6,574 nt of DNA from an uncultured Pseudomonadota bacterium (lineage in GTDB: Bacteria; Pseudomonadota; Gammaproteobacteria; Burkholderiales; SG8-39). This document shows, piece by piece, positions 563 to 6,574 of the stretch; the stretch's first letter is position 1; every line of letters begins with the position of its first letter. Under the pieces are notes generated by a model. It was not told the origin of the DNA. It saw only the letters and a program-made list of their open reading frames with translations, and did not search any database. The translations under genes were made by a program, and so were the position numbers. The stretch covers positions 1 to 6,574 of the forward strand of contig CAITSH010000353.1 in NCBI GenBank assembly GCA_903895005.1, read 5' to 3'.

Positions 563-1912
563 TCAAACCATCTCCGCCTGCACCCTTACCCTCACCTCCA
601 CCGGACTGGCATCGTTGTGCTCGTAGTCGCGGATTTTCCGGATCAGCGATGCGTCGAGCACATGGTCGCGTGACAGCAACAACAGGCCCTCGCGCGTGGT
701 CAGGTCGCGCGCGAGCACCATGCCGCACTGGAGCGCGGCGGCAGAGACGTGCCTTTCGGCCTGGGGTGCGGGCCGGCTGGTTTCGACGCCGACGAGCGCA
801 AGAAACGCGTCCACCACCTGCGGGTCGTAACGACGGCCGCGGTCGGCGATGATGAATTGCTGCGCCTCGGGCGCGCTCAGCGCCACATTGGTCACGGTGC
901 CGCGCTGCAAGCCCTCAAAGTCGCGCGCCACCGCGATGATGCGCGAGCCGATCGGAATCTGCGCGCCGGCCAGCCGGTCCGGATAACCCATGCCGTCGCA
1001 ACGCTCGCACTGGCTGCGAATCAGGTGCGCCGCGGCATCGAGCTGGTCGAGCGCCATCAACGCCGCCTCGCCTTTCACCGGGTGCTTGCAAAACGCCATC
1101 TGCTCTTCCTGGGTGAGATGCGCGAACGGCCGGTTGAGCAGGCGGTCGGGCAGGGACAGTTTGCCGATGTCGCGCAACAGCGCCGCGACCACGACATCCT
1201 GCTGCCCGGACTCCGGCATGTTGAGCCGCAGCGCGATGCGCCGCGCCATGTCGGCAATGCGGCGCGACTGCCCGCTGGTATCACCCTGGCGCAATTCGAT
1301 CAGGTTGGAAAAAACGGCGATGGACGCGGTGAAGTTTTTCTTCAGCTTGTTGTGCGCGAGCGTCAACGAAGTCATGGCCTTTTGCAGCGAGGCGGTGCGT
1401 TGCGCCACCACATCCTCGAGCCCGGCGTTAAGTGTCTTGAGTTCAAGGTTTTGCGCCCTGGTCAGCGCCTCGAGCCTGGCCTTGTCGCGCGCGAGCCCGC
1501 GCAGCTCAAGCGCCTGGCGCACCAGCAGCAGCACATCGCCGTCGCGCCAGGGCTTGGCGATATAACGGTAGATTTCGCCCCGGTTGATCGCGGCAATGGT
1601 GCCCTTGATGTCCTGGACCCCGGTGAGCAGGATGCGTATGGTCTCGGGCCAGCGCTCGCGCACCGCGGCCAGGAACTCGGCGCCGTCCATGTGCGGCATC
1701 GTCAGGTCCGATATCACCATGTCCACCTGCCGCCCCGCGAGCAGTGCCAGCCCCTGTTCGCCGCTATCGGCGGTCAGCACCTCAAAGCCGTGCGAGCGCA
1801 GCATGTTTGACAGCAGCGTGATCACGCCGGGCGTGTCGTCAACCAGCAACAGCGTTGCCGGCTTTGCGAGCAATGGCTCGCTTAAATGCGCGTTGGCCTT
1901 ATCCAAACCCAC
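563..1912 (-). CDS. Response regulator: REC receiver + degenerate HD-GYP domain
   Basis: This is a cytoplasmic two-component response regulator of 449 residues. The REC domain (about 19-135) is intact: acidic pair D25/D26, phospho-acceptor D69 in ISDLTMPHMDG, T97 and K120 in IAKPW. A coiled-coil linker (about 140-195) leads to an HD-GYP-type domain (about 195-375) with DGMGYP at 306-311 and YDPQVVDAFL at 362-371. Active HD-GYP enzymes hydrolyse c-di-GMP with a di- or tri-metal centre. Here the HD pair is R247-D248, the HHE motif is Q301-C302-E303, the upstream GHS is GQS (Q215), and the later Asp is R330, so catalysis is unlikely. The C-terminal part (about 389-445, GMVLARDL...GLLLLS) is a small domain I associate with this group. 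The start is GTG at 1912, with no strong ribosome binding site. No kinase gene is adjacent, so the input is unknown. Confidence 0.92.
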   Translation of the reverse strand: MGLDKANAHLSEPLLAKPATLLLVDDTPGVITLLSNMLRSHGFEVLTADSGEQGLALLAGRQVDMVISDLTMPHMDGAEFLAAVRERWPETIRILLTGVQDIKGTIAAINRGEIYRYIAKPWRDGDVLLLVRQALELRGLARDKARLEALTRAQNLELKTLNAGLEDVVAQRTASLQKAMTSLTLAHNKLKKNFTASIAVFSNLIELRQGDTSGQSRRIADMARRIALRLNMPESGQQDVVVAALLRDIGKLSLPDRLLNRPFAHLTQEEQMAFCKHPVKGEAALMALDQLDAAAHLIRSQCERCDGMGYPDRLAGAQIPIGSRIIAVARDFEGLQRGTVTNVALSAPEAQQFIIADRGRRYDPQVVDAFLALVGVETSRPAPQAERHVSAAALQCGMVLARDLTTREGLLLLSRDHVLDASLIRKIRDYEHNDASPVEVRVRVQAEMV

Positions 1913-2222: not shown

Positions 2223-2942
2223 CTAAAGGCAAAGGCACAGCAGGTAGCGGTTGGTGCCGTTTTCCTGGTAGGTCACCGCCGACGAGGCGGTATCCGGGTT
2301 GCTTGCCGTCTGCAATTGCCCGCGCACCCGGCCCTTTTCGGGCGTGCCCTCATCCATTTGCGCGTCCACCCCGACGGCGATGCTGTCGGGCAGGTTACTC
2401 GAACAAATGATGTTGCCGCCAAAGCCCATGCCGGTGGTTTGCACGCCCATGATGCCGCCGGCGGCGTTGTTCGGCTGCTGCGTGGCGGCAATCCCCTCGG
2501 TGGAGCCACCGACAAAGCCCGCGAGGCGAAGATGCAGCCAGAACAAACCCGTTTCGGCGGCAGCCGCTGCGGGTACGGCGGTGGCATTGTATTTTTGTGC
2601 AGCCAGCAGGGGCGTTGGACAATCGTTGGTGCATAAAACGCCGTTGCCATCGCCGCCGCGGCCGGTGGCGCCCCAGCGCGCGGTCGTGATGCTGTTTTTC
2701 TCGTCACCGGGCAGGGCGCGGTAGCGATCCTGGTAGGCGTAGAGGGCGGCGGTGACGCCGCTAAAATCATCGATGATATTTTTTATCCGCGCCTGCGTCA
2801 CCATCTCACGCGCTTTCAGGGCGCCCCCGAGCAGCAATCCGACCAAGATCAGGACAATGGCGGTGTCGACCAAGGTGAAGCCCGCCTGCGGTCGGATGCG
2901 CGACCGCATACGGGCGCTGAATGTGCCGGGATGTTTGCTCAT
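2223..2942 (-). CDS. Prepilin-type (type IV pilin / type II pseudopilin-like) protein
   Basis: This 239-residue protein has a class III prepilin signal: a basic leader (residues 1-21) ending in QAG, then FTLVDTAIVLILVGLLLGG. Prepilin peptidase should cut between G21 and F22, and the hydrophobic helix (22-42) would anchor it in the inner membrane before assembly. The family's usual Glu at mature position 5 is Asp (D26). The early mature part YAYQDRYRALPGDE (68-81) and the later DAQMDEGTPEKGRVRG (193-208) fit a family of pseudopilin-like proteins with an 'ID-x-DDG-x-P-x-x-G'-like motif. Cysteines at 104/108 and at 180, 236 and 238 could form disulfides; the protein ends in CLCL. It stands alone, with no secretion or pilus machinery beside it. 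A GGAGG is present but 18 bases from the ATG, so the ribosome binding site is weak. Its target system is unknown. Confidence 0.9.
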   Translation of the reverse strand: MSKHPGTFSARMRSRIRPQAGFTLVDTAIVLILVGLLLGGALKAREMVTQARIKNIIDDFSGVTAALYAYQDRYRALPGDEKNSITTARWGATGRGGDGNGVLCTNDCPTPLLAAQKYNATAVPAAAAAETGLFWLHLRLAGFVGGSTEGIAATQQPNNAAGGIMGVQTTGMGFGGNIICSSNLPDSIAVGVDAQMDEGTPEKGRVRGQLQTASNPDTASSAVTYQENGTNRYLLCLCL

Positions 2943-3135: not shown

Positions 3136-3247
3136 GGCCCGGAGAATTACTAAGTCTTGTAAAGCGCCTCGTTTAGAGACGAAACCCATTCATGCAACGG
3201 CCGGCCTGTTGATGAGCCACCCGGCCGGCTGCCATGTCTCTGTTTTT
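3136..3247 (+). ncRNA. Candidate small RNA, unit 1 of a tandem pair
   Basis: I do not recognise an RNA family here; the call rests on layout. The unit begins with the 26-base repeat (3139-3164) and has a short weak hairpin near 3168-3182. A GC-rich hairpin follows: nine pairs, 3198-3206 with 3223-3231, possibly extended by CATG/CATG at 3191-3194 and 3233-3236. T5 at 3243-3247 is offset about 6 bases from the stem. The same order recurs in unit 2. A possible promoter precedes it. It would be transcribed divergently from the pilin-like gene. Alternatively the repeats are protein-binding sites. Confidence 0.35.
3139..3164 (+). repeat. 26-bp direct repeat, copy 1
   Basis: The repeat begins ccggagaatta and ends ctaagtcttgtaaag. 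It matches 3300-3325 at 25 of 26 positions, the difference being A at 3149 against G at 3310. The copies start 161 bases apart, and the sequence between them is not repeated. Confidence 0.9.
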
Positions 3248-3261: not shown

Positions 3262-3299
3262 CTTGGATGTCGAATTTTTGCAGACTGCACCAACACAAC

Positions 3300-3325
3300 C
3301 CGGAGAATTGCTAAGTCTTGTAAAG
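3300..3325 (+). repeat. 26-bp direct repeat, copy 2
   Basis: This is the second copy of the repeat at 3139-3164 (25 of 26 identical). It lies 20 bases before the terminator stem at 3346-3376. Confidence 0.9.
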
Positions 3326-3345
3326 AACGCCGCTTGCAGGCGAAA

Positions 3346-3376
3346 AAAAACCGGGGGCAGGCTGCCCCCGGTTTTT
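3346..3376 (-). terminator. Strong bidirectional intrinsic terminator
   Basis: A perfect 14-bp stem (3346-3359 with 3363-3376) closes a 3-base loop. It contains CCGGGGGCA/TGCCCCCGG and ends in A/T tracts on both sides. On the minus strand the stem runs into eight T (complement of 3343-3350), so it should end the oxidase transcript about 60 bases past the ancestral stop codon. On the plus strand T5 (3372-3376) would end a transcript from the repeat region. Confidence 0.9.
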
Positions 3377-3414
3377 GCAAATGGCGGCGAGGTTCAGGCC
3401 TCGCCGCCATTTGC
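3377..3414. repeat. Perfect 16-bp hairpin abutting the terminator
   Basis: The arms 3377-3392 (gcaaatggcggcgagg) and 3399-3414 are exact reverse complements around the loop ttcagg. The hairpin starts on the base after the terminator stem ends. On the oxidase mRNA it would be the first structure in the 3' end. It may stop exonucleases or assist termination; no family is recognised. Confidence 0.85.
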
Positions 3415-3449
3415 CCGGTTCAGACAATCTTCCCGGTTCAGACAATCTT
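3414..3449. repeat. 18-bp tandem duplication over the ancestral oxidase stop
   Basis: The unit cccggttcagacaatctt occurs twice head to tail (3414-3431 and 3432-3449) with no difference. On the minus strand each copy reads AAG ATT GTC TGA ACC GGG, that is Lys-Ile-Val-stop. The last three codons and stop of the oxidase have therefore been duplicated. The perfect identity suggests a recent slippage event. Confidence 0.95.
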
Positions 3450-3503
3450 CCACATGGCCATCATGCCGTGGTCTTCGTGAACCACGTTATGGCAGTGCAT
3501 GGG
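3438..3503 (-). pseudogene. Severed C-terminal copper-binding tail of the oxidase
   Basis: The frame of the oxidase continues past its TAA for 21 codons and ends at TGA (3438-3440). It reads PM-HCHNVVHEDHGMM-AMWKIV. HCH-x3-H-x4-M is the fourth copper motif of multicopper oxidases: the Cys, the later His and the Met hold type 1 copper, and the two His beside the Cys hold type 3 copper. Every one of these residues is intact, so the loss of frame must be recent or apparent. An ATG lies three bases after the TAA (3498-3500), with AGGG about ten bases before it, so restart of translation to give a 20-residue peptide is conceivable. I think this is unlikely to be functional. Confidence 0.85.
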
Positions 3504-5462
3504 TTAGATGCCCTTGTAGTCGCGAAAGCGCATCGCCGTGGTGATGGTCGAGCTCGGGTCAAGGCGGTACACGTCCTTGCGGCCGCCTTCCAGGGGCTTG
3601 GTCGGATCGGGCTGGGCCGCGCCGTTGTAGCTGAGGATGCGGCCTTCTTCGTAGTGCGGGTGGATCGGATGCGACCAGGAGCCGCCGCCGTTCTTGTGCA
3701 CCCAGACCTCGGCCGTGCCTTCCTTGACTTCGTAAGGTGCGGCATAGCGGTCGAACAACGCGCCGTTTGAAACCCAGGCGCCGTTGCCACGGCCCCACAC
3801 CCATTCTTTGGTCTTGATCGCGGTGATGGCCGGCAGGTCGGGCAGCGGGCGCAGCGGCATACCGTTGACGATCTTGGTGCTGTTGTCGGTGAGGCCGGTG
3901 CGGGCCGCCTCGACGATGAACTTGATCGCGTCGTTGCCGGTGGTAAGCAGCTTGCCCGAGGGGCCGCGGCCGTTGGTCTGCTCGGCGCGGTTGGTGATGA
4001 AAATCTCGGTGCCCGGCTTGAACTTGGAGAAGTCGACGATCACATCGAAACGCTCACCCACGCCCTGCTTGAAGCTGGTCACATCGACGGCGCGCGGCAG
4101 CAGGTTGCCGTCGTTGGCAATCACGGTCATGGGCAGGTAGGTCGAACCGGTTGCGCCCTGGCGCATCCACCACCAGTAAAAGCGCGACGGGCCGCCGTTG
4201 TACATGCGAAGGCGGTACTTGCGCGGCTGCACTTTCATGAACGGCTGGATGGTGCCGTTGACCGTGAGCTTGTCGCCGATGGCGCCGTCAAGGCAGACCA
4301 GCGGGAAGAAGTCCACGCCCTTGGGGTCGAACTGGCGGTCATGGAACATCATCGGCACGTCAAACTCGTAGGGGTAGCTGGCGGCGTCCTGCGAGTGCGA
4401 GGGGAAGCGGATGCCGGTGGTGCCGGCCACGGTCTCGTCGCCGGTATCGACTTCGTCGTAGATCGGCGCGGCGCCGAACAGGCCGGCGTAGACGTTCTGC
4501 GAGGTGAAGTCATGCTTGTGGTCGTGGTACCAGAGCGAGCCGAGGGCCTCGCGGTAGTCGCCGCGCACGCCGGCCTTGGGCGACACAAAGCCCTGGTTGA
4601 TGCCGGCATACAGGTTGGGATAGTGGTGGTCCCAGAACTTGCCGGCGTAGTTGTAATAGAGCGGGCCGCCATCGCTCTCGGAGGGCGTGTGGTGGTTGTG
4701 CATGTGGGTGCACATGGTCGAGGTGCCAAAGCCCAGGGCCGACACGGCATCGACGGCGGTGGCCGGCAGTTCGTTGTAAATACGCACCAGGTGCGAGCGG
4801 CCGTATTTCAGGCGGAACACCGGGCCCGGAACGCCGGTGCAGCGCACGGCGCCGTTGCTGTTGCCGGTGACGTTGTTGACGGCGTCAAAATCACGATCGA
4901 CAAAACCCCAGGCCAGCTGGCCGGCGGCGCCGGCGGGCATCTCGCTATGCCACATGTGCTTGTGCTGGATGGCGCGCATTTCATAAATGTCCTTGGGCGG
5001 ATTGAGCAGCCCGGTGTTCTTGTCGGTGCCGTCCCAGGCCTGGTGCGCGAGGTTCGCGTTGGGCGTGGCGTTCGCCATTTCGGGGTGGTGATGGAGCAGT
5101 TCGAGCTTGGAATCGAGCGCGTTGCTCGGCGCGCTGGTGGGCTTGCCGCCGCGCAGCATCATCGCGTCGGTCAGTTCGGACACGCTGCTCTTGACGGTGT
5201 AAGTGGGCGTCATTTCTTCGAGGCGCTGGAAGGCGTCCTTGAACGGCGTGGTCTTGGGGCTGATGATCTCGACGCCGGGGATCGGGCAATCGGAGGCGGC
5301 AAACGCGGCGCGCATGCTCAGGCCCGGGATGGGCAGCAGCATGCCGGTGCTGGCGCTCAACACACCCAGTTTCATCAGATTACGACGGTCAAGGCCCGAA
5401 CGCGTGAGTTCACGTTGCGTGTCCATGGTGCGCTGGATCAGTTGCTGCTGCTGCTTGTTCAT
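3504..5462 (-). CDS. CotA/bilirubin-oxidase-like multicopper oxidase, cut short by in-frame TAA
   Basis: Multicopper oxidases oxidise phenols, bilirubin or metal ions and reduce O2 to water. This reading frame gives 652 residues. A twin-arginine signal (LDRRNLMKLG at 24-33, hydrophobic 32-48, likely cut after AFA at 55) sends it folded to the periplasm. Three of the four copper motifs are present: THMHNHH (252-258), LWYHDHKHDFTSQNVYAGLFG split as WYHDH (311-315) and NVYAGL (323-328), and SHPIHPHY (597-604). The nearest relatives I can recall are CotA spore laccase and bilirubin oxidase, from SESDGGP after motif 1 and from the C-terminal layout. TAA at 3504-3506 falls where CotA has Tyr in GRYVWHCH, just before motif 4, which continues in frame downstream. 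Without it no type 1 copper site can form. The start ATG has a good ribosome binding site (AGGAAGGGA, complement of 5471-5479). Substrate is not predictable. Confidence 0.93.
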   Translation of the reverse strand: MNKQQQQLIQRTMDTQRELTRSGLDRRNLMKLGVLSASTGMLLPIPGLSMRAAFAASDCPIPGVEIISPKTTPFKDAFQRLEEMTPTYTVKSSVSELTDAMMLRGGKPTSAPSNALDSKLELLHHHPEMANATPNANLAHQAWDGTDKNTGLLNPPKDIYEMRAIQHKHMWHSEMPAGAAGQLAWGFVDRDFDAVNNVTGNSNGAVRCTGVPGPVFRLKYGRSHLVRIYNELPATAVDAVSALGFGTSTMCTHMHNHHTPSESDGGPLYYNYAGKFWDHHYPNLYAGINQGFVSPKAGVRGDYREALGSLWYHDHKHDFTSQNVYAGLFGAAPIYDEVDTGDETVAGTTGIRFPSHSQDAASYPYEFDVPMMFHDRQFDPKGVDFFPLVCLDGAIGDKLTVNGTIQPFMKVQPRKYRLRMYNGGPSRFYWWWMRQGATGSTYLPMTVIANDGNLLPRAVDVTSFKQGVGERFDVIVDFSKFKPGTEIFITNRAEQTNGRGPSGKLLTTGNDAIKFIVEAARTGLTDNSTKIVNGMPLRPLPDLPAITAIKTKEWVWGRGNGAWVSNGALFDRYAAPYEVKEGTAEVWVHKNGGGSWSHPIHPHYEEGRILSYNGAAQPDPTKPLEGGRKDVYRLDPSSTITTAMRFRDYKGI

Positions 5463-5470
5463 TGTTGTCT

Positions 5471-5479
5471 TCCCTTCCT
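5471..5479 (-). promoter_or_regulatory. Ribosome binding site of the oxidase gene
   Basis: The minus strand reads AGGAAGGGA, 8 bases before the ATG at 5460-5462. This is the clearest Shine-Dalgarno sequence in the window and fixes the start of the oxidase. Confidence 0.8.
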
Positions 5480-5667
5480 GAAAAGGCTGTTAAGTAAAAT
5501 TTGCTTCGATTCGAATTAGGTTTTGAGGCCTTACTGCGATGTAGCGATACTAGAAAAAAATTCACTGCCATTTGTCTGTGCGTGGTGGCGTGTTTGCAGC
5601 ACAAACGTGCGGCTTGTGTAACGGTTTGTCATCGCGCCCCGGGCTGCGCACGAACGCACACCGGCTT
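5480..5667. other. Upstream region of the oxidase gene
   Basis: This stretch should hold the oxidase promoter on the minus strand. TAGTAT (complement of 5546-5551) could be a -10 box, but no good -35 is found 16-18 bases away. An odd-centred 11-base palindrome, ttcgattcgaa (5503-5513), lies about 40 bases before the start codon and could be an operator. I see no metal-regulator box that I can name. Confidence 0.35.
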
Positions 5668-6133: not shown

Positions 6134-6418
6134 GATGTTTCGTTGCTGCGTTCAGTCGCGTTGCAGGTTTCGAAGCGTGTGCAGGCTTCAACACCGTTGT
6201 TGTTTTTGGAATGGATGGGCTGAGGACGCGGGCAGCAGTGCGCACATAGGCTGGAAAGGCGCTACTGGCGCGGGTTTCCGGGCGATGGCATTGGTGTTGG
6301 CATGCCGATGTGCGATTGCGACGGCGTGGTCTGCGCGTTGCGCAGCCTTGGTCTTATGCGGCGATGGGTACTGCGTTTTTGTTGCAGCGCTAGGGTAGTC
6401 ACTGTTATTGAATCGGGC
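6134..6418. other. Gene-free stretch leading into the right repeat
   Basis: I see no gene here. A plus-strand frame at 6135-6398 is Cys/Arg/Ala-rich without domain or ribosome binding site. The end of the stretch (about 6355-6418, gggtactgcgtttttgttgc and on) resembles sequence I recall beside the two-hairpin repeat in Burkholderiales, so the repeat may extend into it. Confidence 0.4.
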
Positions 6419-6574
6419 GGTTTCGCCCCCTGCGGGGGGCGAGTTACTTTCTTTGCTTGTGCAAAGAAAGCTAACCAAAGAAAGCACACCCCCGACACCG
6501 CCCCTTCGGGGTTCCCTCGGATGCTCGGTGAAGCGGGCCGGTCCCTGAACTCGCCCCTGCGGGGCTCAGACAAC
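6419..6574 (-). repeat. Dispersed two-hairpin intergenic repeat, right copy (inverted)
   Basis: This is the reverse-complement counterpart of 165-358. Identical blocks are 31 bases (6419-6449), 21 bases (6534-6554) and 11 bases (6564-6574). It keeps both hairpins: an 8-bp GC stem (6423-6430 with 6435-6442), and a 14-bp stem with one bulged C (6443-6456 with 6461-6475, loop ttgt). The arms differ in sequence from the left copy but still pair, so structure is conserved over sequence. The element may continue beyond the window. Confidence 0.8.

Follow-up and report, generated by a model that had tools for sequence, protein, structure and literature searches.

The closest described relative of the multicopper oxidase examined here, among proteins of solved structure, is the bilirubin oxidase of Myrothecium verrucaria (PDB 6iqz, 8rtq and 2xll), which ranks best by sequence and, for the intact homologue P0002, also by fold (23% identity, TM-score of 0.79 on the target). 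As described in a published account, the type-1 copper of bilirubin oxidase is bound by His398, Cys457, His462 and Met467, and a His-Cys-His motif connects this copper with the type-3 coppers (PMC6337666). The HCHNxxHEDHxMM tail and the HPIHxH motif are shared between bilirubin oxidase and the family studied here, and the tails of P0002 and bilirubin oxidase align without gaps. Unlike bilirubin oxidase, the oxidase frame in the window (the whole stretch of 6,574 nucleotides analyzed here) stops ahead of the tail. Their alignment begins at residue 304 of the window's protein and residue 125 of the bilirubin oxidase chain, indicating a longer N-terminal part in the window's family. The CotA laccase of Bacillus (PDB 1gsk and others), with which the original prediction had compared the frame, has the multicopper oxidase fold in common with these proteins and ranks below bilirubin oxidase in both the sequence and the fold searches, with the match starting at residue 212 of the window's protein and residue 56 of CotA.

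The oxidase frame occupies positions 3504..5462 of the minus strand, opens with an ATG at 5462 and comprises 652 sense codons followed by an in-frame TAA (3504..3506, minus strand), which takes the position of a near-invariant Tyr, residue 653 of 674. In phase behind the TAA lies a tail of 21 sense codons (3441..3503, minus strand; PMHCHNVVHEDHGMMAMWKIV), which encodes the HCHxxxHxxxxM motif, with its type-1 and type-3 copper ligands, and the last strand of the fold, and which is closed by the natural terminator TGA (3438..3440, minus strand), at the same position where the genes of the relatives end. Because the tail matches the ends of the relatives and differs from the nearest DNA relative, L001, by synonymous changes only, its openness is not due to chance. 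The original prediction, made from the sequence alone, had placed the 652-residue frame, the TAA and the same-frame TGA at exactly these positions, and all three were recovered on the minus strand; it was also right in considering the tail to be coding and in frame, but quoted a length of 13 residues where the actual tail has 21, including the last β-strand of the P0002 model. By sequence and fold similarity, the protein is a three-domain multicopper oxidase, the fold being that of the intact relative P0002; the family profile PF07731 (Cu-oxidase_2) was matched with 31.6 bits, above the cut-off of 20.4, and PF07732, with 20.7 bits, remained just under its cut-off of 21. The TAA-bearing oxidase is represented by one member on one contig. 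No frame damage was found elsewhere in the approximately 1,360 codons of the three genes in the window, which otherwise uses the stop codons TGA, TAG and TGA, with TAA ending no other gene there.

Conservation of the stop position was assessed at the level of both proteins and DNA. Of 8,000 scored candidates, 2,550 were found to be homologues, and 120 were listed, including the window's own frame. The tail motif HCHxxxHxxxxM is kept near the end of 117 of the 120 listed sequences, and where the window has its stop, 116 of these 117 carry Tyr and 1 carries Trp, bearing out the predicted alignment of the TAA with a Tyr. The 3 listed sequences without the motif are the window's own frame, P0062, which stops at HPIHPH and is perhaps cut by its own contig, and P0063, which diverges after RKDVYL. 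Since the homologues are predicted proteins, the same stop elsewhere would show as a protein ending at this position, and none of the 119 other listed homologues ends there. The closest listed homologue, P0002, is 98% identical and intact, and among the matches listed there are intact homologues at 98%, 97% and 95% identity. According to the original prediction, a Tyr codon in sister strains would make the stop an error or a single-strain mutation, and the intact homologues indeed point to a mutation in a single lineage or an error.

Searches of genome contigs matched 24 loci, of which the 11 close ones (L001 to L011) were used for the counts and 13 distant Arthrobacter-type loci were left out. 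The stop position encodes Tyr in 10 of the 11 close relatives and Trp in L011, with a stop codon in none, and 6 of them (L002, L003, L007, L008, L009 and L010) naturally end this gene with TAA. No relative nearer than L001 was recovered from the 98 searched genomes of its family, a plasmid search returned two weak alphaproteobacterial matches only, and searches of phages and viral contigs returned no matches. The locus displays one hallmark of a pseudogene or nonsense allele, namely, a premature stop that removes essential residues, with the relatives being intact.

In the numbering of P0002, 7 copper ligands precede the stop and are present in the window (H253, H255, H313, H315, H598, H601 and H603), and 5 follow it and are present in the window's tail (H656, C657, H658, H662 and M667). 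This matches the earlier claim that the TAA takes off the last copper motif and leaves the other ligands intact on both sides: the DNA encodes all 12 ligands, and the encoded 652-residue product holds 7 of them. H253 and H255, which fall outside the bilirubin oxidase alignment, we take to be copper ligands based on their motif and their invariance. In the P0002 model (mean pLDDT of 79.8), the stop position lies inside strand 651–657, with strand 668–673 being the last, such that truncation at the stop cuts the former and loses the latter. A product ending at residue 652 could hardly build a type-1 site. A literature search for CueO C500S found nothing, and, judged by title among the matches listed, no publication dealt with a stop at the HCH motif.

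Comparison with L001 over 650 codons revealed 92 synonymous and 72 replacement changes, corresponding to a dN/dS of 0.21. For the window paired with each of nine further copies, a set without L005 and L008, the values ranged from 0.14 to 0.27, and five pairs of intact copies yielded 0.17 to 0.28. The dN/dS analysis advised in the original prediction thus gives a value like that of intact pairs. The 21 tail codons differ from those of L001 by 3 synonymous and no replacement changes. Furthermore, a comparison with 58 full-length homologues, drawn from the 119 others listed, revealed no residue particular to the window at any of the 652 positions, with 12 intact homologues, which served as a yardstick, carrying 0 to 6 unique residues by the same measure, and at each of the 12 differences between P0002 and the window, the window residue is found in at least 5 other homologues. 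Hence, neither the dN/dS against L001 nor the count of unique residues displays relaxed selection, which a very young allele would not show yet. The lack of decay besides the stop implies that the lesion is very young or not real, and because a young lesion and an error predict the same pattern, these data do not separate the two. Of the very young pseudogene envisaged originally, youth is thus supported by the absence of decay, which an error would show equally.

The genomic context of the oxidase, a point absent from the original prediction, sets the window apart from its relatives, with the oxidase lacking its usual downstream partner. In L001, the oxidase is followed by genes for an SCO1/SenC protein, a repeat protein (presumably Sel1-like, as judged by eye), a thioredoxin-fold protein and a CusF protein, and this cassette (L001 4547–9381) recurs in betaproteobacterial genomes. 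All four downstream proteins were matched in L001, L003, L007, L010 and L011, and an SCO gene lies behind the oxidase in 9 of the 11 loci, being cut by the contig end in L008; the contig of L002 stops 74 nt past the oxidase gene, and L006, the intact second copy carried by the genome of L001, shows no SCO gene within 4,931 nt. None of the SCO, repeat, thioredoxin-fold and CusF proteins has a match in the window, where the neighbors of the oxidase are a prepilin-like protein of 239 residues (2223..2942, minus strand) and, beyond it, a response regulator with an HD domain assigned to the NCBIfam NosR family (563..1912, minus strand). The regulator is 70% identical to a relative in L001 that is located divergently upstream of the oxidase, whereas in the window it is codirectional and downstream. 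The changed orientation and the missing SCO gene, as compared with L001, suggest that the oxidase segment lies turned or shifted with respect to the regulator and apart from its cassette, although the altered neighborhood could itself be a misassembly. DNA similarity between the window and L001 spans positions 3438–5658, including the region upstream of the oxidase (5535..5658, minus strand), which is 77.4% similar over 124 nt. The end of this similarity at the natural stop is uninformative, because the matches to L004 and L011, in both of which an SCO gene follows the oxidase, break off at the identical base. The prepilin-like protein carries the sequence GFTLVDTAI, and its nearest homologue is 65% identical; prepilins usually carry Glu at the fifth position. 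It had no Pfam match at 0.001, and its listed homologues carry PF07963.

The region behind the oxidase is rich in repeats. An 18-bp tandem duplication (3414..3451, 2.1 copies) spans the last codons and the natural stop, followed directly 3′ of the gene by a 16-bp perfect hairpin (3377..3414, minus strand) and a perfect inverted repeat with 15-nt arms and a T run at its end on the coding strand (3346..3376, minus strand), which is a candidate intrinsic terminator. Both hairpins fold together over 101 nt with −66.2 kcal/mol (z −7.9). A consensus terminator scan yielded 3 sites versus 3.7 expected, with neither post-gene hairpin among them, perhaps because the A–T pairs of the second stem consume the T run. 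An Rfam match to sraA scored 27.8 bits, well under the gathering score of 56, and was regarded as a chance hit. A 47-nt direct repeat (CCCGGAGAATTNCTAAGTCTTGTAAAG...; 81% alike) is located in the intergenic region after the oxidase at 3138–3184 and 3299–3345 and may be a regulatory or mobile repeat; its 24-nt core, with up to 2 mismatches allowed, was found in none of the 10 related genomes. Inverted repeat stretches at 184–393 and 6384–6557, which are 71% to 78% complementary, flank the three genes near the contig ends, and a 21-nt piece of one of them occurs 3 times in the genome of L001 (once exactly and twice with 2 mismatches) and in none of the 9 others, such that it may represent a dispersed repeat of that lineage. 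Finally, positions 29–99 hold a perfect TTTTGT array of 11.8 copies.

Searches for other oxidase copies in 10 related genomes and in 98 genomes of one family, 12 of which were matched, yielded 31 different places, with many of those from the family search being just 35% to 58% identical. In-frame stops were found in 2 of these 31 copies, L038 and L048, and in 1 of the 14 places from the 10-genome search. L038, which the genome of L002 carries as its second copy, has two adjacent TAG codons (1948–1953) in a frame which is otherwise readable and is cut by the contig end. L048, a distant copy (1501–2821), has one TGA and, towards its end, a break in the frame just before HCH. Thus, copies with stops occur, by decay or by errors. 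Two oxidase copies are held by 4 of the 10 related genomes, and L003 carries a tandem pair in the same direction (2628–7028). L001, L006 and L008 belong to metagenome bins labelled Bordetella parapertussis, a label which seems doubtful, with the isolate names looking environmental.

We weighed four readings of the TAA, the ranking of which is a matter of judgement, and consider it somewhat better than an even bet that the window holds a real, young nonsense allele in an oxidase gene located outside its cassette. Under this reading, a bilirubin-oxidase/CotA-like multicopper oxidase gene, sitting outside the usual copper cassette, would have recently gained a nonsense codon 22 codons ahead of its natural end, and translation would halt ahead of HCHxxxHxxxxM. 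The truncated product would lack most of the last two β-strands along with 5 of the 12 copper ligands, and would hardly form a type-1 site, with no electron transfer to the trinuclear site. The stop, the intact tail, the conservation of the position and the changed neighborhood are observed in the DNA; from these, the base is probably real in the organism and the product probably inactive. Purifying selection until recently, the missing SCO gene together with the changed relative direction of the neighbor, the in-frame stops in 2 of the 31 other copies (one of them distant) and the three window genes without other frame damage all argue for such an allele. Against it, loss of SCO does not mean that the oxidase is useless, intact L006 also being without SCO, and the changed neighborhood could stem from misassembly. 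Moreover, the TAA is present on one contig only, so a base error is possible, and an error would equally leave no relaxed selection. Indeed, a single-base sequencing or assembly error in a gene that is intact in the organism is a possibility to be taken seriously, even if we rate it below an even chance. It is favored by the single contig, the single member and the one isolated base, by the undecayed tail and body next to intact relatives at 98%, 97% and 95% identity, and by the inverted repeats at both contig ends, which would be expected at short-read assembly breaks. Such an error would, however, have spared the rest of the approximately 1,360 window codons and been a rare draw, with 175 of the 5,868 single substitutions in the 652 codons making a stop; yet the finding was picked for being a stop, and a real mutation faces equal odds.

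The two other readings retain a function for the gene as it stands. Readthrough of the TAA or its recoding as an amino acid, with some full-length oxidase being made, would fit the fully preserved protein sequence of the tail and the absence of TAA at the end of any other window gene. In programmed readthrough, the stop is conserved in relatives; here, nearly all relatives with the motif have Tyr at this position, so the stop is not conserved, none of the 119 other listed homologues terminates at this point, all 11 DNA relatives have a sense codon there, and TAA naturally ends the same gene in 6 of the latter. The youth of the lesion explains the preservation of the tail as well, and the readthrough option raised by the original prediction thus finds no support and appears very unlikely. 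It is scarcely credible, too, that the host decodes TAA often enough for a copper enzyme to be throttled by a stop right before its electron-transfer motif. A truncated protein that is functional by itself, for instance, in copper binding without oxidase activity, would be consistent with the 7 ligands and most of the fold that remain, but we regard it as highly improbable given the cut through strand 651–657 and the removal of strand 668–673 in the P0002 model, and no other listed homologue stops here, P0062 and P0063 being different cases. Residues 551, 564 and 565 fit more distant homologues, which raised the possibility of a chimera between strains; the DNA identity profile is without a sharp change of partner, making this reading less likely.

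If the young nonsense allele is real, the locus captures a moment of gene loss within a family of copper oxidases, with the lesion seen together with a changed gene neighborhood and knowledge of these enzymes unchanged. It also illustrates the reach of an isolated stop in one contig, for which the lesion itself could be confirmed and dated as very young or false. Most likely, a well-known enzyme family here shows an ordinary lesion that involves no new mechanism: either one strain lost the function very recently, or the assembly contains an error at a single base. Ordinary bacterial nonsense alleles and young pseudogenes consist of one stop in an otherwise conserved frame, and the oxidase of the window is like young pseudogenes in its one stop, its conserved frame and the position of the copy outside the usual gene cluster.
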